Positions 7,964 to 26,702 of a stretch of 35,938 bases of DNA are shown here, piece by piece. The DNA comes from Oscillospiraceae bacterium (lineage in GTDB: Bacteria > Bacillota_A > Clostridia > Oscillospirales > Oscillospiraceae), in the NCBI GenBank assembly GCA_902789835.1, contig CADAPN010000010.1:1-35938 (forward strand), written 5' to 3'. Numbering within the stretch: the stretch's first letter is position 1; each line of letters begins with the position of its first letter. Position numbers and translations under genes: made by a program. The notes under the pieces are model-generated. The model was given only the letters and a program-made list of their open reading frames with translations, made no database searches and was not told the DNA's origin.

Positions 7964-8095
7964 ATGGAATGGGTAACAGAGCGGGAAGCAGCACTGCTGG
8001 AGAAGGGCCGCGAGAACTGGGACGAAGATGATACTGAAGAGTGGGAATATCTTCAGGACGTCAAGTCAGGAAATGAAACATGCGGAATTTTTTAA
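7964..8095 (+). CDS. 43-residue acidic protein
   Basis: AAAGGGGG lies upstream of ATG 7964. The product MEWVTEREAALLEKGRENWD is followed by a Glu/Asp-rich stretch and ends in CGIF. The helical, very acidic make-up resembles small phage inhibitors or DNA mimics, but nothing specific can be claimed. The 98 bases after it contain two hairpins (8120-8136 and 8145-8161). Confidence 0.5.
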   Translation: MEWVTEREAALLEKGRENWDEDDTEEWEYLQDVKSGNETCGIF

Positions 8096-8193
8096 GAATG
8101 CAAATCCTAACCGATGAGAACTGGACGGTAACCAGTCGAAATCACCTGACAGCCAGTCAGGGAGATCTTAGGAAACCAGAAAGGAGAATAAAC

Positions 8194-8862
8194 ATGGATT
8201 TCAAATATGGAATGAGACTCAGAGGTTTCTCGCTTGGCTGTCAACCGATGGAAGGACTGATGAGAGCAGAGAGCGGAAATGCTCAGTATCACAGCATCCT
8301 TGTGTACAACAGGCCTCTGACCCAGCAGGAAGTTGACGAGTACGAATTAGATGATCTTCAGAAGAATGAAAGGAGCAACACTATGAATAAGAATCTTGAA
8401 ACCATGAAGTGCAATGAACTCCGCCTGATGGCGCGTGACCTTGGAATTAAGGGCTACGGCAGCAAGGGCAAGGAATGGCTGATCCCCCGGATCACCGAGA
8501 TCATGGAGGCCAAAGAGGCCGAGGCAAAGGACGCCGCCGAGAAGAAGCCCGTCAAGGAGAAGAAGCCCCGCAAGGTCAACCTGATCGAGCATGACGGCAA
8601 GGCGCAGAGCCTTGGTGCTTGGGCCAAGGAGCTGGGAATGCCGGTCCCGACCCTTCGGGCGAGACTCCGCAACGGATGGACAATTGAGCAGGCACTTGGC
8701 AAGGCCAGTGCTGGCAAGGCTGAAAAGTTGATCGAGTTCAACGGCAAGAGCCAGACGCTGACGGCATGGAGCCGGGAGCTCGGAATCCCGAGAGCAACAC
8801 TTGATGCCAGGATAAACCGTCTTCACTGGGCACCCGAAAAGGCATTCGCCGCCAGAGCATAA
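8194..8862 (+). CDS. In-frame fusion: conserved phage protein plus SAP-like/HTH-repeat DNA-binding protein
   Basis: ATG 8194 follows AAAGGAG. Residues 1-63 (MRLRGFSLGCQPMEG, YHSILVYNRPLTQQEVDEYE) are a family normally about 60 residues long with a stop after the acidic end. Here no stop occurs and the frame enters a second protein. That protein has its own GAAAGGAG site and ATG at 8383, so a 159-residue product may also be made. The second part has a SAP-like region (LETMKCNELRLMARDLGIKG), a Lys/Ala linker and two tandem repeats of the type 'G..ss(L)..W..ELG.p..TL.aR', at about residues 134-176 and 181-222. Those repeats resemble DNA-binding modules of AP2/HNH proteins. Fusion by stop loss is inferred. 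Confidence 0.7.
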   Translation: MDFKYGMRLRGFSLGCQPMEGLMRAESGNAQYHSILVYNRPLTQQEVDEYELDDLQKNERSNTMNKNLETMKCNELRLMARDLGIKGYGSKGKEWLIPRITEIMEAKEAEAKDAAEKKPVKEKKPRKVNLIEHDGKAQSLGAWAKELGMPVPTLRARLRNGWTIEQALGKASAGKAEKLIEFNGKSQTLTAWSRELGIPRATLDARINRLHWAPEKAFAARA

Positions 8863-9919: not shown

Positions 9920-10447
9920 ATGATCATAATTGATAATACAAACATCAAGTATATTGATAAAAAATACGCTGTATCCAAAGACGGGCGCATTTTTACATTC
10001 TGGGAAAATCATAAAAAGTGGAAAGAACAAAAGCTTAGAAAGCATAGAAACGGATATCTACGTGCAACAATACACGGGAAAGACGCATATGTACATAGAC
10101 TTGTTGCGGAATACTTTTGCAATAACCCGCACAAATACAACGAAGTGAATCATATAGACGGGGATAAAACCAATAACAACGCGGAAAACCTTGAATGGTG
10201 CACGAGATCGCAGAACAACAAACATGCGTTTGAAACAGGATTGAGAGACTATTCTGAATTAGCAGAGATTGCAAATTGCAGGGCTGCGAAGGAGAAGAAA
10301 AAAGAAAGACGCTGTATTTCTTTTGAAACAGCGGAAGAAATAAGAAGAATAAAGGGTAAAACAGATAGAGAAATCGCAAAGAAATATGGTATTTCGCGTG
10401 GAACTGTGTGGCAGATAAGGAACGGATTAACATACCGTTATGCTTAA
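9920..10447 (+). CDS. HNH homing endonuclease with C-terminal HTH
   Basis: The 175-residue protein has an N-terminal NUMOD4-like region (YAVSKDGRIFTFWENHKKWK). An HNH_3-type core follows (HRLVAEYF, then EVNHIDGDKTNNNAENLEWC, residues about 59-94) and then an HTH (TDREIAKKYGISRGTVWQIR, residues 147-166). It cleaves DNA and spreads its own gene. GGGG precedes ATG 9920. The gene is AT-rich compared with its neighbours, a sign of transfer. It lies exactly between a truncated ParB fragment and an intact ParB-methyltransferase gene, so its arrival probably went with loss of the rest of the older gene. Confidence 0.88.
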   Translation: MIIIDNTNIKYIDKKYAVSKDGRIFTFWENHKKWKEQKLRKHRNGYLRATIHGKDAYVHRLVAEYFCNNPHKYNEVNHIDGDKTNNNAENLEWCTRSQNNKHAFETGLRDYSELAEIANCRAAKEKKKERRCISFETAEEIRRIKGKTDREIAKKYGISRGTVWQIRNGLTYRYA

Positions 10448-13687: not shown

Positions 13688-15115
13688 TTGCTGACATACG
13701 AAGATTTTCAGAAGATCGAAAACGACGAGCAAGAGAAGATCAAGCTGATCCTGCGGGCGATCGGGGAGCACAAGAGATCCCCTGCGTACATCAAAGCGGT
13801 CGAAGCCCAGGATTATTACAACGGCGAGAACACCACGATCATGAAGTATGAGAAGGTGCTCTATGACATGCAGGGCATGGCGCACGTCGACATGTGGACG
13901 GCAAACCACAAGATCGCCTCGTCTTTCTTCACGTTCGTGATCGATCAGGAGCTTTCCTATCTTCTCGGCAACGGTGTCCGCTTCGGCAAGGCAGAGACGA
14001 AAAAGAAGCTCGGAAAAGACTTCGATCAGGAAGTCATGGACGCGCTTGAATACGCCAGAATTGCCGGAACATCCTTCGGCTTCTGGAATTACGACCACCT
14101 GGACGTTTTCAAGCTCACAGAGTTTGTCCCAATCTACGGGGAAGAAAACGGAGCTCTGATGCTTGGCATTCGCTTCTGGCAGCTCGACCGGAACAAGCCG
14201 ATGCGAGTCACGCTCTACGAGCTGGACGGTTATACGGAATACATCCAGCGGTCAGCGAAGAAGATGGAAGTCCTCAAAGAGAAGCAGCCGTACAAAGTGA
14301 AAGTCATTTCTGCAGATGACGGGACGCGGATCACCGAGGGCGAGAACTATGACGGATTCCCGATTGTTCCGCTTTACGGCAACAAACAGCACACCAGCGC
14401 CCTGAGAGGTCACAGGAACACGGTCGACGCGCTGGACCTTGCCACTTCCAACATGGTCAACAACGTGGACGAGGGCAATCTGATCTACTGGGTGTTGACA
14501 AACTGCGGCGGGATGGATGACATGGACGATGCCAAGTTTGTGGAACGGCTGAAAACGCTTCATGTCACGCATGCGGACGGCGATTCCGGCGCCAAGGCCG
14601 AAGCCCACACGCTGGAAGCTCCCTTCGAGGGAACAAAGGTCACAGTGGACATGCTGAAGGATCAGCTTTACGACGATTTCCAGGCCTTCGACGCAAAAAG
14701 CCTGACAGCTGCCGATATGAGTGCAACAGCGATCAGAGCAGCATATACCCGCCTTGATATGAAGTGCGACAAGATCGAGACACAGCTCACGAGGTTCATC
14801 AACGGCATCCTTGCGCTGGCCGGGATCGAAGATGATCCGACCTACCAGAGAAACCCGATCGTCAACAAACAGGAAGAAGTCCAGAGCATCATCATGCAGG
14901 CCGACTACTTTGACGAGGAGTACATCATGAAGAAGCTGCTTGCCATCAACGGCGACATCGACATGTATGATGAGATTGCCAAGCGCATGGATGCCGAGAA
15001 TGCCGACCGGCTGAGAGAAGCCGAGGCCAGGCTGAAAGCACTGGAAGCGCAGAACGGACAGAACGGCCAGAACAATCCGCAGGGCAGCCAGGAGGACGAA
15101 GGGGCTGGTGAATAA
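13688..15115 (+). CDS. Portal protein (SPP1 gp6-like)
   Basis: The 475-residue protein starts at TTG 13688 behind GGAGTGAAAGG. It has the gp6-family order: an N-terminal helical region with YIKAVEAQDYYNGENTTI, a central wing (GTSFGFWNYDHLD), ADMSATAIRAAYTRLDMKCD near the stem, and a Gln/Asn-rich tail (QNGQNGQNNPQG). It forms the dodecameric DNA gate between terminase and head. The last base overlaps the start of the gp7-like gene. Confidence 0.92.
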   Translation: MLTYEDFQKIENDEQEKIKLILRAIGEHKRSPAYIKAVEAQDYYNGENTTIMKYEKVLYDMQGMAHVDMWTANHKIASSFFTFVIDQELSYLLGNGVRFGKAETKKKLGKDFDQEVMDALEYARIAGTSFGFWNYDHLDVFKLTEFVPIYGEENGALMLGIRFWQLDRNKPMRVTLYELDGYTEYIQRSAKKMEVLKEKQPYKVKVISADDGTRITEGENYDGFPIVPLYGNKQHTSALRGHRNTVDALDLATSNMVNNVDEGNLIYWVLTNCGGMDDMDDAKFVERLKTLHVTHADGDSGAKAEAHTLEAPFEGTKVTVDMLKDQLYDDFQAFDAKSLTAADMSATAIRAAYTRLDMKCDKIETQLTRFINGILALAGIEDDPTYQRNPIVNKQEEVQSIIMQADYFDEEYIMKKLLAINGDIDMYDEIAKRMDAENADRLREAEARLKALEAQNGQNGQNNPQGSQEDEGAGE

Positions 15116-16989
15116 TGGCCGACCGAGGGCATGAACTCACCGACGAAATCCTGAACAAGCTCGAAGCCAGGATTGCCGACGAATACGCCGTTGCAACTCG
15201 CGACATGCAGCGCAAATTCCGGGAGTATATGGAGAAGTTCGAGGCGGAAGACGAAAAGCAGAAGGCCCTTCTGGAAGCAGGAAAGATCACCAAGAAGGAG
15301 TACAAAGACTGGCGTTACCGCCACGTGATGGTCGGCAAGCGCTGGGAAGCCATGAAGGACGTTCTTGCACAAGACCTGGAACATGCTTCTGATATCGCCT
15401 TGAAGATCTCCGGGGAGAAGATGGCCGATGTGTATGCCCTGAATGCCAACTTCGCCACCTATCAGATCGAGCACGACGCGAAGATCGACACCGGCTTCAC
15501 GCTATACAACCACGACACAGCAGAATACCTCCTGAAAGATCAGAGACAGCTGATGCCGGGACCATCTGCGAAAAAGGCAAAAAAGATTGCCGCTGATAAG
15601 GCCATGCAGTGGGATAAGCAGAAGATTCAGTCCGCCGTGCTGCAGGGTGTTCTCCAGGGCGAAGGCCCGCACAAAGTGGCCGAGAGGCTGCGTCAGGTTG
15701 GTCAGATGGGCTACAACGCATCGGTCAGGTATGCGAGGACTATGACAACCTCCGCTCAAAATGCAGGCCGTTACAACTCATTCAGAAGGGCAAGGGATCT
15801 GGGTGTTGACCTGACGATTGAATGGATGGCGACACTGGACGGCAGAACCCGGCACGCGCACCGTATGATGCACGGGCGGCGAACGACGGTCGACGAACCG
15901 TTCTACACGCCTGACGGCTACACGATCTATTATCCGGCTGACTGCTCCGGTATGTCTGACGCACCGCAAAGCGAAATCTGGAACTGTTTTGTCGGAGAAA
16001 CAGTTGCAGCTTCTGACAGTAAGATCGTCAGAAGCTACAAGCATGAGTATCACGGCGAATTATTCCATATCAAAACATCCAGAGGCGTAGAGTTCACCTG
16101 TACCCCGAATCACCCAATACTGACACCGCGCGGGTGGATTGCTGCGAATGCGCTTCACGAGGGAGACAACATTCTCGTAACAAGAGTCGGAGAATTTGAT
16201 TCGTCGGGGCTCGATCCAAACATAAACCATGTTTTTCCCAGCATGAAGGCAATCCATCAGTTTATGAATATGCTTCCCGGTGAGCGGGCTTCCGGTTTGA
16301 GTGTGAATTTCCACGGCGACAGGGCCACAGCCAATGTCGAGGTTGTAAGCAAGGAAAGGTTCTTGAGGGACAACATCAATTCCGGCATCACGGAGACGGG
16401 AGATAAATTCTGCTTCAAAGATACCTGTGCGCTTGTTTTTAGCAAGAGCCATTTTGTGTCTCGTCTCAGGCGAATTTATATATCCGCGCTTCGCCTCATA
16501 CGCATTGGAAGCGAGTCTTTGACGTTCTTCTGGAGAAGTTTGTGCCATGCGTGTATACATGGATTCGGAACGGTTGCGCGGAGTGATCCCGGCATTTCTG
16601 AGTACGCGATAGATGACTTGCCGACTATGACCAATATCCGAAGCGAGTTGCTTGACGGACTTTCCGGCAAGGTATTCACGGATAATATTGTCGCAATCGA
16701 CAGACAAACGCGGCGGCATTTTTGCCATGTTTATAACCTCCAAACAGAAAATGGGTATTATTTCGTCAGAAATAGTATATCATGCGGAGAAGAAAAAAGC
16801 AACGACAGTTATTATGCGATAGCAAAAAACTGCCGCTGCACCCTGCGGGCCATGGTCAAAGGCTATGAGCGGGAAACGATCAGAAGCTCCCCGAAGATGG
16901 GCGACATGTCATTTGAAGAGTGGCAGGACATGAAGGATGATCAGATCCAGCGGGAATTGAGAGTGTGGCGAGAAGAAAATGGCCGTTGA
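15115..16989 (+). CDS. Minor head protein (SPP1 gp7 / Mu gpF-like) interrupted by an intein
   Basis: The precursor is 624 residues. Extein N (1-290) is helical and Lys-rich, with SVRYARTMTTSAQNAGRYNS and the diagnostic ATLDGRTRHAHRMMHGR of gp7/gpF head morphogenesis proteins, and reads up to SEIWN. Extein C resumes with CRCTLRAMVKG, so the family's conserved WNCRC motif is split exactly before its first Cys. Splicing would give a 342-residue head protein of ordinary length. It acts at the portal vertex during head assembly. The gene lies directly after the portal and overlaps the gp10-like gene at its end. Confidence 0.9.
   Translation: MADRGHELTDEILNKLEARIADEYAVATRDMQRKFREYMEKFEAEDEKQKALLEAGKITKKEYKDWRYRHVMVGKRWEAMKDVLAQDLEHASDIALKISGEKMADVYALNANFATYQIEHDAKIDTGFTLYNHDTAEYLLKDQRQLMPGPSAKKAKKIAADKAMQWDKQKIQSAVLQGVLQGEGPHKVAERLRQVGQMGYNASVRYARTMTTSAQNAGRYNSFRRARDLGVDLTIEWMATLDGRTRHAHRMMHGRRTTVDEPFYTPDGYTIYYPADCSGMSDAPQSEIWNCFVGETVAASDSKIVRSYKHEYHGELFHIKTSRGVEFTCTPNHPILTPRGWIAANALHEGDNILVTRVGEFDSSGLDPNINHVFPSMKAIHQFMNMLPGERASGLSVNFHGDRATANVEVVSKERFLRDNINSGITETGDKFCFKDTCALVFSKSHFVSRLRRIYISALRLIRIGSESLTFFWRSLCHACIHGFGTVARSDPGISEYAIDDLPTMTNIRSELLDGLSGKVFTDNIVAIDRQTRRHFCHVYNLQTENGYYFVRNSISCGEEKSNDSYYAIAKNCRCTLRAMVKGYERETIRSSPKMGDMSFEEWQDMKDDQIQRELRVWREENGR
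16060..16728 (-). CDS. Putative homing endonuclease, HTH plus Vsr/EDxHD-like, antisense within the intein
   Basis: The 222-residue protein has an HTH at residues 23-48 (KSVKQLASDIGHSRQVIYRV). A basic linker follows (SPEERQRLASNAYEAKRG, then SPETRHKMALAKNKR). The nuclease-like domain has FEAEF (104-108), YNLDI (128-132, D131) and VAVEIH (137-142, E140, H142). This spacing is that of the Vsr-like EDxHD homing endonucleases of phages. ATG 16728 has GGAGG eight bases upstream (16741-16737), and a consensus-type promoter lies before that. Every codon is antisense to intein codons; its C-terminus overlaps intein block B. An in-frame start at 16743 is possible but would lie too close to GGAGG. The nuclease class is inferred from motif spacing. 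Confidence 0.78.
   Translation of the reverse strand: MAKMPPRLSVDCDNIIREYLAGKSVKQLASDIGHSRQVIYRVLRNAGITPRNRSESMYTRMAQTSPEERQRLASNAYEAKRGYINSPETRHKMALAKNKRTGIFEAEFISRLRDAGIDVVPQEPFLAYNLDIGCGPVAVEIHTQTGSPLTGKHIHKLMDCLHAGKNMVYVWIEPRRIKFSDSCYENVVSLVKRIRSNPPARCQYWVIRGTGELYASGCFDME
16774..16802 (-). promoter_or_regulatory. Antisense promoter inside the intein C-terminal region
   Basis: On the minus strand TTGCTT (16802-16797), a 17-base spacer and TATACT (16779-16774) lie 46 bases before the endonuclease ATG. On the sense strand these bases encode the extra residues between intein blocks F and G. Confidence 0.6.
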
Positions 16990-18280: not shown

Positions 18281-18940
18281 ATGAGCTTTAACGCAAGCAA
18301 GAACGGCTATGGTTACGCGCCCGGCTGGTTCCTCGCCGAAGAGGATTGCAGCCGCGAGACCCGCACCATTCCCCAGAATCATGCCCAGGTCGTGACCGGA
18401 TCCAACGGCGCGAAGCACGTCCCGATGGGCGCGTTCTTCCCGGCCAACAATTCCAGCACGGTTGAGGGTATCGTCTATGAAGACGTCGACGTCAGCACCG
18501 GCGCGATGCCCGGCAGCGTCGTAACCAAGGGTGTCGTTTACCTCGACCGTCTTCCCGCTTCTCCCGAAAGCGGTGTTCAGTCCGCCCTGGAAGGCAAGGG
18601 CTTCAAATTCTACGCGACCGCGCCCGCGGTGCTTCGCCCGGACTTTAACGTCAAGGAACTGGCGGAACTCACCGTCCAGTCTTCTGCCGGCACGGCCAGC
18701 GGCGACACCGCCATCACCGTCTCCGGCTACACGCTGAAGGCCGGTGACAAGTACAAGTACAAAGTGGCAACCGGAACCGCTCCGGCAGTTGTCTCCGGTC
18801 AGGACCTCTCCTCCTGGACCACATGGGACGGCACTTCGGATATCACCGCTGCCACCGACAAGAAGATCACGGTTGCCGTCGTTGACGCTTCCAACTTTGC
18901 AGTTGCAGCCGGCAGCGCCACTGTGACCGCGCAGACCTGA
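18281..18940 (+). CDS. Head decoration / capsid accessory protein with Ig-like end
   Basis: This is a 219-residue protein behind AAAGGATG. The first 130 residues (GYAPGWFLAEEDCSRETRTI, then GIVYEDVDVSTGAMPGSVV) match the small decoration proteins that precede lambda-type capsid genes in Clostridia phages. The rest is Thr/Ser/Ala-rich beta sequence (SSAGTASGDTAITVSGYTLK) like a surface-exposed Ig-like domain. It probably stabilises the head and may bind mucus or glycans; the latter is a guess. Confidence 0.75.
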   Translation: MSFNASKNGYGYAPGWFLAEEDCSRETRTIPQNHAQVVTGSNGAKHVPMGAFFPANNSSTVEGIVYEDVDVSTGAMPGSVVTKGVVYLDRLPASPESGVQSALEGKGFKFYATAPAVLRPDFNVKELAELTVQSSAGTASGDTAITVSGYTLKAGDKYKYKVATGTAPAVVSGQDLSSWTTWDGTSDITAATDKKITVAVVDASNFAVAAGSATVTAQT

Positions 18941-18957
18941 TAAGGAGGTAAAACATC

Positions 18958-20040
18958 ATGATTGAGAATTTCGAGAACGGCATTTTCGGTATGCTGCCGG
19001 CAGAAGCCTGGCTTGAAGTCGGCTTCGACGTCACCCGTCCCGACGATCCCGTGGATCAGGTGATCGGCGACACCAAGACCGACAACCTGGTCGCCTACTG
19101 GGAGAGTATGGCTGCCGAGTACAATATCCCCGTCATGGCTCAGTTCCATGCGTTCGACACCGAGTCTCAGAAGACTCTCCGCTATCCCATCGATGTGCAC
19201 AACATCGAGAAGGGCCTGATCAAGGTCAAGATCGACCAGTCCGAGCGCCTGCGTGCTCTCATGGACCGCGGCGTCACCCGCACCAGCGCCCTGATCGAGC
19301 GTGTCCTGAATGATGGCTACAACCTGGCCGAGCAGGTCTTCACCCGTTCCAAAGTGGCGAAGAACGAGATGCTGGCCACCGGCAAAGTCACCATCAAGGA
19401 AAACAACCTCGACCTGACCGTTGATTACGGCGTTCCCTCCGCGAACCTGCAGAAGGTTCTGGACTTCGGTCCCGGTGCTGCCACTCCGCTGGATGAGCAG
19501 CTTCTTGAGCTGACCACTGAGGCGAGAGGCAAAGGCGTGCCGCTGACCGGTATGTACCTCGGCCAGGCTGTCCTCAACAAGTTCCGCAAGAGCGCGAACC
19601 TGCAGAAAGCCATCAACGGCTCTGCCATGGTCGGACAGCTGATCCGCAATTCCGATCTCCGCGCCTACCTGACCGAGGAATTCGGCATCACCCGCATCCT
19701 CATCAACGACGCGGTCTACTCCCTGCCGCTCACCATGGGCAGCAACGGTCGCCCGGTCGTGACCTCCCAGCGGTACTATCCTGACAACAAGGTGTCCTTC
19801 TTCTCCGGCAACGGCCAGATCGGTGAGGGCATCTGGGGCGATCCTCCCGAGGTCAGCGCGGCCCGTTTCATGGACGTCTCCGGCAGCGAGGTTTCCCCGT
19901 ATGTCTATGTTTCTCAGTACGCTGAGAACGATCCTGCCGTCACCTGGACCAAGGCGAGCGCCCTGTTCATGCCGGCTCTGTACAACCCGAACGGCCTGTA
20001 TGTAGCCAGCGTGCAGGAAAGCCCTGTTGCCAACGGCTGA
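18958..20040 (+). CDS. Major capsid protein (lambda gpE family)
   Basis: The 360-residue protein follows TAAGGAGG. HK97-fold features of the Phage_cap_E family are visible. An N-terminal arm leads to DTKTDNLVAYWESMAAEYNI, followed by a long spine helix around IDQSERLRALMDRGVTRTSA. A mid region has VPLTGMYLGQAVLNKFRKS and the C-terminal part has ILINDAVYSLPLTMGSNGRP. No protease gene is present in the window, so processing is unlikely or done otherwise. The order decoration protein then capsid protein matches lambda D-E. Codon use is strongly biased, as expected for the most abundant protein. Confidence 0.92.
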   Translation: MIENFENGIFGMLPAEAWLEVGFDVTRPDDPVDQVIGDTKTDNLVAYWESMAAEYNIPVMAQFHAFDTESQKTLRYPIDVHNIEKGLIKVKIDQSERLRALMDRGVTRTSALIERVLNDGYNLAEQVFTRSKVAKNEMLATGKVTIKENNLDLTVDYGVPSANLQKVLDFGPGAATPLDEQLLELTTEARGKGVPLTGMYLGQAVLNKFRKSANLQKAINGSAMVGQLIRNSDLRAYLTEEFGITRILINDAVYSLPLTMGSNGRPVVTSQRYYPDNKVSFFSGNGQIGEGIWGDPPEVSAARFMDVSGSEVSPYVYVSQYAENDPAVTWTKASALFMPALYNPNGLYVASVQESPVANG

Positions 20041-20041
20041 T

Positions 20042-20296
20042 ATGGCACGGGGGAAGAAAACCGCCTCCGTCCTCGTATCTGACTCTGTCCCGGACCTTGT
20101 CACATCCGCCGAGACAGCAGTCGTGAATTCCGCGCCGGGCCTGAATCTCCGCAAAAACCCGGCGCGGAACGCGCCTGTCCTGCGCGTCCTGAAGGACGGG
20201 GAGACGATCACCCTGGACAATTCCATCGACGTACCGGGCGGCTGGAAAGCCGTCGCGGGCGGCGGCTTTGTGATGGCCGAATTTCTGATATTCTGA
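20042..20296 (+). CDS. Small SH3-domain protein of the head region
   Basis: The 84-residue protein starts at ATG 20042, one base after the capsid stop. A Lys-rich start is followed by a bacterial SH3-like segment (GLNLRKNPARNAPVLRVLKD, then WKAVAGGGFVMAEFLIF). SH3b domains bind peptidoglycan peptides or proteins. At this position it could be a head-fibre or structural accessory. An in-frame TTG at 20027 is less likely as start. Confidence 0.7.
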   Translation: MARGKKTASVLVSDSVPDLVTSAETAVVNSAPGLNLRKNPARNAPVLRVLKDGETITLDNSIDVPGGWKAVAGGGFVMAEFLIF

Positions 20297-20313
20297 AATA
20301 AGGAGGAATCCGC

Positions 20314-20736
20314 ATGTTGACCGAACTTTGCCAGGAACTGCATAACTGGTTCGAGCGCGAAAAGCGTTCCGGATCCTTCCGTATCGTTGACGGGATGCTG
20401 GAAGCTGACTTCCTTCTGCCCGGACAGTATTTCCGCGTGATGGGCAGCCTCTTCAATGATGGTGTGCATCAGTACGGAAACGACTACCTGAACGACGAGG
20501 ATTTCACCGGCTCTGTTTGGTCGCTTGCGATTCCGGAGGCCGTCATTAAGTTGTCGGAAGATATCGACGCATGGCGGTCAAAGTATGAGGAAGCGGGAAG
20601 CTCAGCAATGAGTCCGTTCACGTCTGAAAGCTTCGGAGGCTATTCCTATTCCAAGGGAAGCGGTTCCGCTGCCGGAAGTGCAGTCAGCTGGCGGAACGCA
20701 TTTGCGACTCGGCTGAGCTCATGGAGGAAACTGTAA
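20314..20736 (+). CDS. Head-tail connector protein
   Basis: The 140-residue protein follows AAGGAGG. The mostly helical first part (LTELCQELHNWFEREKRSGS, then IPEAVIKLSEDIDAWRSKYE) and the Ser/Gly-rich end resemble the gp6/YqbG-type DNA-packaging connectors next to capsid genes. It would extend the portal ring. Its stop overlaps the next ATG (TAATG). Confidence 0.8.
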   Translation: MLTELCQELHNWFEREKRSGSFRIVDGMLEADFLLPGQYFRVMGSLFNDGVHQYGNDYLNDEDFTGSVWSLAIPEAVIKLSEDIDAWRSKYEEAGSSAMSPFTSESFGGYSYSKGSGSAAGSAVSWRNAFATRLSSWRKL

Positions 20737-24620: not shown

Positions 24621-26702
24621 ATGGCACAAGCGACTGTAAAATTATACTTTAAAAAATGGGCGTATGTAAAAAAAGATTCGCCGTCTGTTGTTGTTGATAT
24701 AACGGGTCAGGAAAGACTTAAGCTGTCACGCAACGAGACATCCGGCATTCTTCAGTATGCTTATGTTGGTTTCAATTCACTTCCGAGCAATTTAAAAAGA
24801 AGAAGATTATATTCTGTCAGTGCGCTTTTTGCTATAAAAGGCCCTGATAGTGTTGGAAATGGAACTCGCGGTTTCTTGAATGTTTCATCCGCTGATTTTA
24901 ATCCAAGTACATTGGTGTGGACAAACAGACCATCTGGCACAGGTGGTTTGCGTTTATTATCAGAAATTGCTGACCATAGCGGGAAACAAGACCGCATTTT
25001 TTCTATTGACGGAGATGTGGTTTCTGACGTAGATAGGTCGAATTTAACAGCGCTGATTTTGAAATCCAATGCGGGATTTTTTTATGCGGCTTGGGATAGT
25101 GGTGATATACTCGGAGCGGCTCACGAATGCTATCTCTACAATACTCTGGTGGGCGGCGGGCTTCCATATCTTGAAATAACTTATGATAACAGCATAAGCG
25201 TAAAAAGCAAAATTGTTTTGAGGTCAGGCCCGACAGGCGGGTATGTAGATCCAAGAAACAACACTACATTTTCTTGGGCGTTTGTAAAGGATGACACGTA
25301 CAGTTGCGCGGATGAGAATTTTGGTCAAGCCTCAGCAACACTGTATTGGAAGGAGAGTACGGTTGAAAACTATACAGCTGTTTCTGTATCTGGTAGCACT
25401 CAATCTGTAACAATCCCGGCGAACACGTTTCCAACGAAAAAGACTATTCAGTGGTATGTACAAGGGACAGATGACGGCGGTACAACTTCTCAAACCTCTG
25501 TTTACAGTTTCAGCACTTCTGCGCCACTGGTTGTTTCAACACCGGTTAAGCCAATTAATACCATAGAAGATGGAAGAAACGAAATTCTGTTTCAGTGGGC
25601 ATTTTCAAGCTCGGACGGGCGGGCGCCAAGTAGGCTGTTCCTTTATTGGAGAGAAGAAGGGGCGAACACGTGGCAGACCTTGTATAATCCGGGGGCGGGA
25701 GTAATTGTTACGTCGTACAGGGCTCCAGCTGATACGTTCCCTGCTGGGACAATTGAATGGGGTATACAGGCAGCAAACGTTGATGGCGCTGGTGGCGCTG
25801 TTGGAACAGCAAAATTTATCAATTATGCATCACCAACAGTAAGCAATGTTTCTGCTGCCGCTGTACCGTATACAACTGTTACGTGGCAGGCATCAGATCA
25901 GCAGGCATATCAGATCAAAGTGGACGATGTTATATACGGTCCTTATTTTGGAACAGAGAAAAGCTTTGCAATCCCTGACTGTCTTGAAGATGGAGAGCAT
26001 ATTATAGGCGTATCGGTTGTTGGAACTTACGGCCTTTGGAGCGAGTGGGAAGAGCATATAATCGATGTTCTGAATGACCCCGGTGAGGCTGTAAGTCTTG
26101 ATTCTGAGGCATGTATAGATATCAAGCTCTTTATCGACACGCAAGACGCAACGAAAAACTTCCAAATATACCGGGACGGTGTGCAGATTGCAAAAACCAA
26201 CAAGTCTGTATTCACTGACCGCTTCGCACTCGGAGAACACACCTATAAGGTCGTGAATAAACTTGAGAATGGGAATTATACCGCCAGCAATGAAGTGGTT
26301 AGATTCTCATGCGTCAAAAACGCGAATATCGCTTTACTGAGCGGAGGCGAATGGCTGGAAATCAAGTACACGCTGAAAAGCAATAGCGATCCGGAGTATG
26401 AGGATGCTGTTGAAATCACGTACAATCATCTGGCGGGAAGCGACTACCCGTCAGCTGTAATCAGCCAATACTTGGATAAAAAAGTCAATTATTCGGCTGT
26501 GTTCCTGTTCAATCAAGCGGACGAGCGGAAAACGTTTGAAAGCATGTTCAAAAAACCGGTAATCATCAAGTTTGCAGATGGCACTTTGTTTGCCGGTATT
26601 CTGGATTCGTGGTCTAAGCACCCGGTAAAAAAGTATTATACATCATACACATTTACCGTTACTCGAATGGACATTGAGGACTACGTTGATGATACGAAAT
26701 GA
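24621..26702 (+). CDS. Large distal tail / adhesion protein with DNRLRE-like and Fn3-like modules
   Basis: The 693-residue protein has an N-terminal beta domain (ERLKLSRNETSGILQYAYVG, then LVWTNRPSGTGG) resembling DNRLRE modules of surface proteins. Several Fn3-like repeats follow (FSWAFVKDD..., FQWAFSSSDGRAPSRLFLYW, VTWQASDQQAYQIKVDDVIY). The C-terminal 130 residues (LSGGEWLEIKYTLKSNSDPE, then YTSYTFTVTRMDIEDYVDD) look like a distal tail anchoring domain. The first two thirds are AT-richer than the surrounding late genes, which points to exchange of receptor-binding modules. It lies where Dit-type genes are expected. Confidence 0.72.
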   Translation: MAQATVKLYFKKWAYVKKDSPSVVVDITGQERLKLSRNETSGILQYAYVGFNSLPSNLKRRRLYSVSALFAIKGPDSVGNGTRGFLNVSSADFNPSTLVWTNRPSGTGGLRLLSEIADHSGKQDRIFSIDGDVVSDVDRSNLTALILKSNAGFFYAAWDSGDILGAAHECYLYNTLVGGGLPYLEITYDNSISVKSKIVLRSGPTGGYVDPRNNTTFSWAFVKDDTYSCADENFGQASATLYWKESTVENYTAVSVSGSTQSVTIPANTFPTKKTIQWYVQGTDDGGTTSQTSVYSFSTSAPLVVSTPVKPINTIEDGRNEILFQWAFSSSDGRAPSRLFLYWREEGANTWQTLYNPGAGVIVTSYRAPADTFPAGTIEWGIQAANVDGAGGAVGTAKFINYASPTVSNVSAAAVPYTTVTWQASDQQAYQIKVDDVIYGPYFGTEKSFAIPDCLEDGEHIIGVSVVGTYGLWSEWEEHIIDVLNDPGEAVSLDSEACIDIKLFIDTQDATKNFQIYRDGVQIAKTNKSVFTDRFALGEHTYKVVNKLENGNYTASNEVVRFSCVKNANIALLSGGEWLEIKYTLKSNSDPEYEDAVEITYNHLAGSDYPSAVISQYLDKKVNYSAVFLFNQADERKTFESMFKKPVIIKFADGTLFAGILDSWSKHPVKKYYTSYTFTVTRMDIEDYVDDTK

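Follow-up and report, generated by a model that had tools for sequence, protein, structure and literature searches.

A 35,938-nucleotide stretch of contig CADAPN010000010.1 of an Oscillospiraceae bacterium (assembly GCA_902789835.1; hereafter the window) contains a MuF/gp7-like phage head gene with an intein that is predicted to splice itself out. Codon against codon, the other strand of this intein encodes a separate protein that is likely a homing endonuclease. We give this reading, which is built on sequence comparison and structure prediction, a probability of roughly 0.88. That the layout goes beyond chance follows from a stop-free register on the opposite strand, the codon-position pattern of the changes, a deficit of codons that would stop the sense frame, a search made with splicing blocks A and B alone, expression signals within the intein codons, and selection that can be followed region by region (Table 1 lists the features).

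The intein and its probable antisense nuclease

The head protein matches Phage_Mu_F (PF04233) in a domain profile search with an E value of 1.2e-14 over residues 169-265, and the sense translation also matches Intein_splicing (PF14890; E 3.9e-8, 33.7 bits for a cut-off of 35.8) and, above its cut-off, the intein_Nterm model TIGR01445. The residues at the predicted splice junctions are C291, N572, and C573, and removal of the 282 intein residues from the 624-residue precursor would leave a head protein of 342 residues. Among intein relatives at 48 of 51 loci (the three truncated loci were left out), C1 and the terminal Asn are present in all 48, the block B TxxH in 47, and residue +1 is Cys in 47 and Thr in one. 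The structure model of the intein is HINT-like, with inteins and other HINT-fold proteins as top Foldseek matches; its predicted local distance difference test score (pLDDT) is 83-95 over the splicing-domain parts (residues 1-70 and 231-260) and 32-51 at residues 121-220, with a small helix and strands between residues 87 and 123. Profile searches of the precursor reported no endonuclease domain in the sense translation, and nothing in the window, an RNA intron core included, matched Rfam at gathering score; the sense open reading frame (ORF) stays open throughout. The precursor is one continuous ORF, which is not the layout of a split intein. These results uphold a preliminary description of the window, made from the sequence, as to coordinates, lengths, register, and the lack of a sense-strand endonuclease. 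The 'head protein' family phrog_15127 matches intein residues 1-151 plus extein, so that this family model itself appears to contain an intein.

The same description had recognized a 222-residue helix-turn-helix plus Vsr-like protein on the minus strand, and both parts were recovered. The helix-turn-helix matches PF19575 (E 4.4e-5, 23.7 bits for a cut-off of 23.8) and appears as helices at residues 12-20, 25-32, and 36-45 of a model with a pLDDT of 90.5, whose top structural match in the fold comparison is I-Bth0305I. E-D-x-H-D is the catalytic residue motif of the EDxHD/Vsr homing endonucleases. In the family studied here, the candidate counterparts E105, D131, and E140 are invariant in all 38 members, and H142 occurs in only 37 of 82 clusters. 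At the sequence level, the MTES_1575 profile matches 14 of the 38 members at E≤0.1 (best 1.3e-6) and the Vsr profile matches P0116 at 3.5e-5, one of three proteins tried; neither match was listed for P0001. A PDB sequence search with the single nuclease protein returned nothing useful, I-Bth0305I emerging through the fold alone, and one with profile A1 returned helix-turn-helix proteins, the Neisseria endonuclease-like protein 3hrl (E 0.0057), and weak, chance-like rows. We consider it likely that the 222-residue protein is the homing enzyme responsible for spreading the intein.

Table 1. Features of the head gene, its intein, and the antisense nuclease gene (window positions, except for the last row, which refers to locus L026)
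Feature	Positions	Strand	Remarks
MuF/gp7-like head ORF	15115-16989	+	624 residues, single continuous frame
N-extein, head protein residues 1-290	15115..15984	+	PF04233 match; intein-free homologues
Intein, Cys1 to Asn282 (282 residues; precursor residues 291-572)	15985..16830	+	
Intein block B core TPNHP, intein residues 40-44	16102..16116	+	opposite nuclease residues 209-205; alignments
Sense motif F109-H110-G111-D112	16309..16320	+	opposite nuclease E140-V139-A138-V/I137
Sense 'filler', intein residues about 125-226	16357..16662	+	low-confidence model, near neutral
Intein block F, VYNLQTEN	16729..16752	+	NLQ codons hold the nuclease Shine-Dalgarno on the opposite strand
C-extein, residues 573-624	16831..16986	+	begins Cys+1 RCTLRAMV
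Antisense homing-endonuclease-like gene, 222 residues plus stop	16060..16728 (ATG 16728; coding 16063-16728)	-	
Helix-turn-helix, nuclease residues 12-45	16594..16695	-	PF19575; helices in model
Vsr/I-Bth0305I-like nuclease domain, residues 100-217	16078..16431	-	invariant E105, Q122, N129, D131, E140
Shine-Dalgarno GGAGG, 8 bases before ATG	16737..16741	-	26/26 near relatives
Extended -10, TGA TATACT	16774..16779	-	TGNTATAMT in 20/26
-35 TTGCTT, 17-base spacer to -10	16797..16802	-	17/26 with -10
Terminator-like hairpin, 15 pairs, directly after nuclease stop	16004..16040	-	covariation; randomisation
Free-standing nuclease homologue, L026	455-1348		

Open frames, selection, and expression signals in the overlap

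The nuclease frame lies codon against codon with the sense frame (register 0), and nuclease residues 189-222 face intein residues 60-27, including the TPNH of block B, in agreement with the preliminary placement of the endonuclease C-terminus. Besides itself, the minus protein has 119 relatives at E≤1e-3, and tblastn against 50,697 phage records found matches in 118 of them at E≤1e-5 and in 127 at 1e-3, in phages of Gordonia, Salmonella, Pseudomonas, Klebsiella, Vibrio, Idiomarinaceae, Aggregatibacter, and others; in 32 of the 60 matches listed, the gene beneath bears the name of a head, capsid, or MuF protein. The gene beneath the match in NC_073183.1 is annotated as an NAD+-asparagine ADP-ribosyltransferase and is perhaps a mis-annotated head gene. 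Of 22 matching phage records that we retrieved, 21 were checked for stop codons: in 18 the nuclease gene is nested with both strands open, in L025 (marked UNVERIFIED) it is nested with its frame broken, and in two Acinetobacter phages (L026 and L302) the homologue is free-standing. Hosts of the phages with this layout belong to two or more bacterial phyla (Gordonia; Gammaproteobacteria). The nuclease goes unnoticed in annotation: 17 of the 18 annotated nested records list no gene on its strand and the remaining one (L303) has a coding sequence there within the match, a partial ORF.

Both strands had been described as open in the window, and this extends to its relatives. The strand opposite the nuclease is stop-free in register 0 in 65 of 66 loci (a set that includes repeats of the same contigs), the other registers having 3-37 stops; the exception is the free-standing L026, with 12, 23, and 10 stops. 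Once L025, L026, and identical nuclease genes were removed, 51 loci were left. In the 44 of these with enough reference codons, the nuclease genes contain no sense-stopping codon (TTA, CTA, or TCA) against 179.5 expected from neighbouring genes; because the loci are related, no exact probability is attached. A pooled set of 286 hits, 267 of them near full length and 156 left after removal of near-duplicates, tells the same: 154 of the 156 non-redundant genes are free of such codons, L189 has two, both outside the aligned nuclease homology, and L026 has 12.

Searches that started from the sense side, as the preliminary description had proposed for both frames, kept the best 80 of 191, at least 577, and 461 relatives, and all found the antisense gene, always in register 0: in 80 of 80 loci, in 65 of 65 distinct loci (search A6), and, when splicing blocks A-B were the sole query (search A7), in 70 of 70 distinct loci. 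The sets share contigs and are not summed. The pattern of searches A4 and A6 ([ND]FHGD...) itself mirrors the nuclease, and A7 therefore serves as a less biased control, block B too facing the nuclease; as only the best 80 were kept per search, there may be inteins farther away that lack the nuclease. The 70 A-B loci include three shortened or remnant genes (L242, L245, and L273) and four truncated where the stored sequence ends. The shortened or remnant nucleases (L099 on the contig of L245, L101 on that of L242, and L273, which reads FHSD in place of FHGD) lie in smaller inteins and possibly form a natural decay series.

Substitutions separate the constraints on the two frames. Over 14 independent pairs and 3009 codons, differences at nuclease codon positions 1, 2, and 3 number 647, 355, and 1131, whereas the N-extein, coding in sense only, has the ordinary pattern of 0.378, 0.289, and 0.633 changes per codon at sense positions 1, 2, and 3. 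With changes classed as nonsynonymous (N) or synonymous (S), first for the nuclease and then for the sense protein, the rates are 0.011 for NN, 0.026 for NS, 0.112 for SN, and 0.135 for SS. Where nuclease residues 23-124 face the sense linker, NN/SN comes to 0.07 (0.05-0.09) for the nuclease and NN/NS to 0.80 (0.54-1.33), near neutral, for the sense protein, and the sense strand there is therefore a filler that needs merely to remain free of stops. In block B (nuclease residues 189-222) the two ratios are 0.16 (0.08-0.26) and 0.17 (0.07-0.27), so that both proteins are constrained at the same codons; both are also low, 0.20 and 0.23, at nuclease residues 1-22. The sense ratio is 0.17 (0.00-0.52) at residues 125-145, with few changes (4 NN, 9 NS), and 0.62 (0.39-1.01) at residues 146-188. 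The synonymous-site analysis suggested beforehand finds the nuclease frame under purifying selection throughout and the sense protein under selection in three places: block B, the neighbourhood of FHGD, and the stretch facing the N-terminus of the nuclease. FHGD, the sense of the nuclease motif AVE140, is conserved in 79-81 of 82 clusters, and the sites of the nuclease that are synonymous there are nearly fixed (A138 GCC 80/80, V139 GTG 76/76, V137 GTC 54/54, E140 GAA 79/81). A DNA-level signal behind this conservation was considered; several changes at FHGD are sense-synonymous (nuclease I/V137, M139), which two amino-acid constraints fit better.

Expression signals probably lie within the intein codons as well. 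The GGAGG ahead of the nuclease start, already noticed in the window, is kept in all 26 near relatives (window included) against 3.4 under sense-preserving randomization, and in distant loci a Shine-Dalgarno sequence with a start is found in 12 of 19, for 3.7 expected. The promoter fared less evenly. Its motifs stand where the preliminary description had put them, with the extended -10 TGNTATAMT, a pattern chosen after the sequences had been viewed, in 20 of 26 near relatives (0.4 expected) and TTG-N16-18-TGNTATAMT in 17 (0.1 expected); L051 has the extended -10 pattern at another position, as judged by eye. A consensus promoter scanner, however, did not list the window promoter (8 of 12 matches, threshold 9), and support by score failed, the best 12-base sigma-70 score beating sense-synonymous randomization (≤0.05) in only 1 of 26 loci. 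In the near clade the promoter pattern falls within an additional stretch that separates blocks F and G, and the distant relatives align without that stretch. To these signals we can add a terminator-like hairpin (16040-16004, minus strand), absent from the earlier description, which is stronger than sense-synonymous randomizations (z≤-2) in 17 of 26 loci; its stem as named from the window is whole or nearly so in 17, not quite the same set, and broken in nine. Changes on both sides affect 12 of its 15 pairs (43 cells against 20.8 when shuffled), and RNAalifold predicted no structure for all 26 downstream segments together. The Shine-Dalgarno sequence, the extended -10, and the covarying terminator-like hairpin thus appear to be conserved within intein codons of the near clade.

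Mobility and alternative readings

The intein appears to be mobile, leaving its flanks behind. Between the window and locus L001 it is 96.9% identical, compared with 68-71% for the N-extein and 60-74% for the C-extein (60% over the first 150 nucleotides, 74% gapped over a longer stretch), and in three further pairs the inteins are 92.5-95.8% and the N-exteins 60-79% identical; the pair L018/L019 has no such difference between intein and flanks. Thirteen viral loci match the window N-extein, of which ten have an uninterrupted junction, one has the intein, and two end before the site. The intein-free homologues run straight on as IWN|CRCTL, Ceridwen being likewise empty, and the intein-free L287, with an N-extein 85% identical to that of the window, encodes exactly 342 residues, the length predicted for the spliced protein. 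Related inteins were recognized by eye in the terminase large subunits of L103 and L117, and L142 has two antisense-nuclease inteins within one MuF protein. A search for plasmids with the precursor gave seven records, each covering at most 46% of the query. In the Acinetobacter phages the free-standing nuclease gene is convergent with an uninterrupted, intein-free MuF gene and overlaps it by 7 bases, plausibly the ancestral state.

Other readings of these data have to be weighed. The minus ORF could be a by-product, kept open by sense codon usage and intein conservation and yielding no nuclease: spurious mirror ORFs are common in register 0, and the window has further long minus ORFs that lie across head genes (e.g. 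18799-20469). This seems to us extremely improbable, since the changes pile up at nuclease third positions, which are sense first positions, the reverse of the N-extein and a contradiction of such an origin; the confident nuclease model, the GGAGG in every near relative, and the free-standing homologue in Acinetobacter phages also argue against it. Conversely, the sense 'intein' might no longer splice and be only the open shadow of an invading nuclease gene, its insertion tolerated in the head protein. The near-neutral linker with its low-confidence model would fit, and the penultimate intein residue weighs against splicing, being Lys (K571) in the window instead of the usual His, which is present in 26 of 48 relatives and replaced in 22. 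Against a shadow stand the splicing residues kept at practically all loci, the low sense ratio at block B, and the well-modelled splicing domain with inteins among its top matches, and we regard it as very unlikely.

Somewhat less remote, yet still unlikely, is that both genes are real and the nuclease does not, or no longer does, serve homing: it would exclude competing phages or regulate transcription, and the intein would spread by ordinary recombination. A helix-turn-helix joined to a nuclease could serve exclusion, the homing role is one of predicted cleavage, and one similar pair lacks an identity island, whereas four pairs have inteins far more alike than their N-exteins, alleles are empty at the exact site, and both head and (by eye) terminase genes are occupied. 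A spliced intein with an antisense homing nuclease remains the reading that we prefer.

Elsewhere in the window, two endonuclease-like genes lie upstream of the packaging genes (8080-8859, with an HNH PHROG match, and 9920-10444, HNH_3 with NUMOD4/helix-turn-helix), and a 693-residue protein (24621-26699) has a weak match, below cut-off, to a rhamnogalacturonan lyase beta-sheet (E 4.4e-4).

Proposed mechanism and known systems

We propose that an embedded promoter and Shine-Dalgarno site of its own serve to express the nuclease and that transcription stops at the hairpin, which lies between the start of the intein and the stop codon of the nuclease gene; little antisense RNA would then enter the N-extein. 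The enzyme would cut intein-free head genes (terminase genes in other phages) near a WN|CRC-type junction, and repair of the cut would copy the intein into the empty gene. Splicing would then restore the head protein, so that the insertion would cost little, and nuclease expression would be uncoupled from that of the head protein. Most of the sense strand opposite the nuclease would just have to stay open; around FHGD, in block B, and across from the N-terminus of the nuclease, both proteins constrain the same codons. We lean towards a wider proposal, a phage intein class with a complete, separately expressed homing-nuclease gene in mirror register, in which shared codons (E140/FHGD, nuclease C-terminus/block B) lock the two proteins together, drift or loss of one being costly to the other. 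In this mirror layout the promoter sits in the F-G segment, the Shine-Dalgarno in block F, the nuclease across the linker, its C-terminus in block B, and the terminator between blocks A and B. If true, such locking would delay the decay that endonucleases usually undergo once fixed and would explain the presence of the nuclease in nearly every copy seen; the idea that overlap shields a selfish nuclease against decay becomes testable. The system also offers a long natural overlap of antisense protein-coding frames, where selection acting on either frame can be told apart region by region.

In the 'fractured genes' reportedly described by Dassa et al. in 2009, a nuclease gene is said to sit between the halves of a split gene with split inteins, unlike the present intein, a single continuous ORF with the nuclease antisense inside it. 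Searches of open-licence papers gave us no account of an endonuclease gene lying antisense to an intein, a layout of which the preliminary description likewise knew no example, though an earlier mention may exist, for instance in the 2009 paper; the available portions of PMC12350094, PMC3943268, PMC2988022, PMC11855218, PMC9548176, and PMC8966425 do not describe one. Canonical mobile inteins share with ours the HINT splicing motifs, a conserved insertion site, empty alleles, and a nuclease within the intein DNA, but their nuclease is, from the accessible text of PMC8966425, a domain of the spliced polypeptide and not an opposite-strand gene with its own signals. Nuclear group I introns (Didymium I-DsqI, Dir.S956-2), one of the two nearest precedents, do have an antisense endonuclease gene with its own transcription in a self-splicing mobile element; according to the portion of PMC9548176 available, that gene lies in P9, a peripheral part of the rRNA intron, and the opposite strand of the intron is untranslated, whereas here both strands code and have codons in common. 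In the ShiLan type, the other near precedent, reported in 2025, a hidden mobile HNH gene overlaps an in-frame, stop-free insertion in a phage methylase, for which host tolerance was proposed; as far as the available part of PMC11855218 goes, it uses the third frame of the methylase (apparently the same strand) and has no intein, in contrast with the antisense, Vsr-like gene in a HINT intein described here. The EDxHD/Vsr homing family also has a Vsr-like nuclease fold associated with inteins, and our top structural match, I-Bth0305I, belongs to it. Beside these systems, the window would represent a third way of coupling a homing nuclease to a splicing element, neither fused nor adjacent to it and written on the opposite strand of the same codons.
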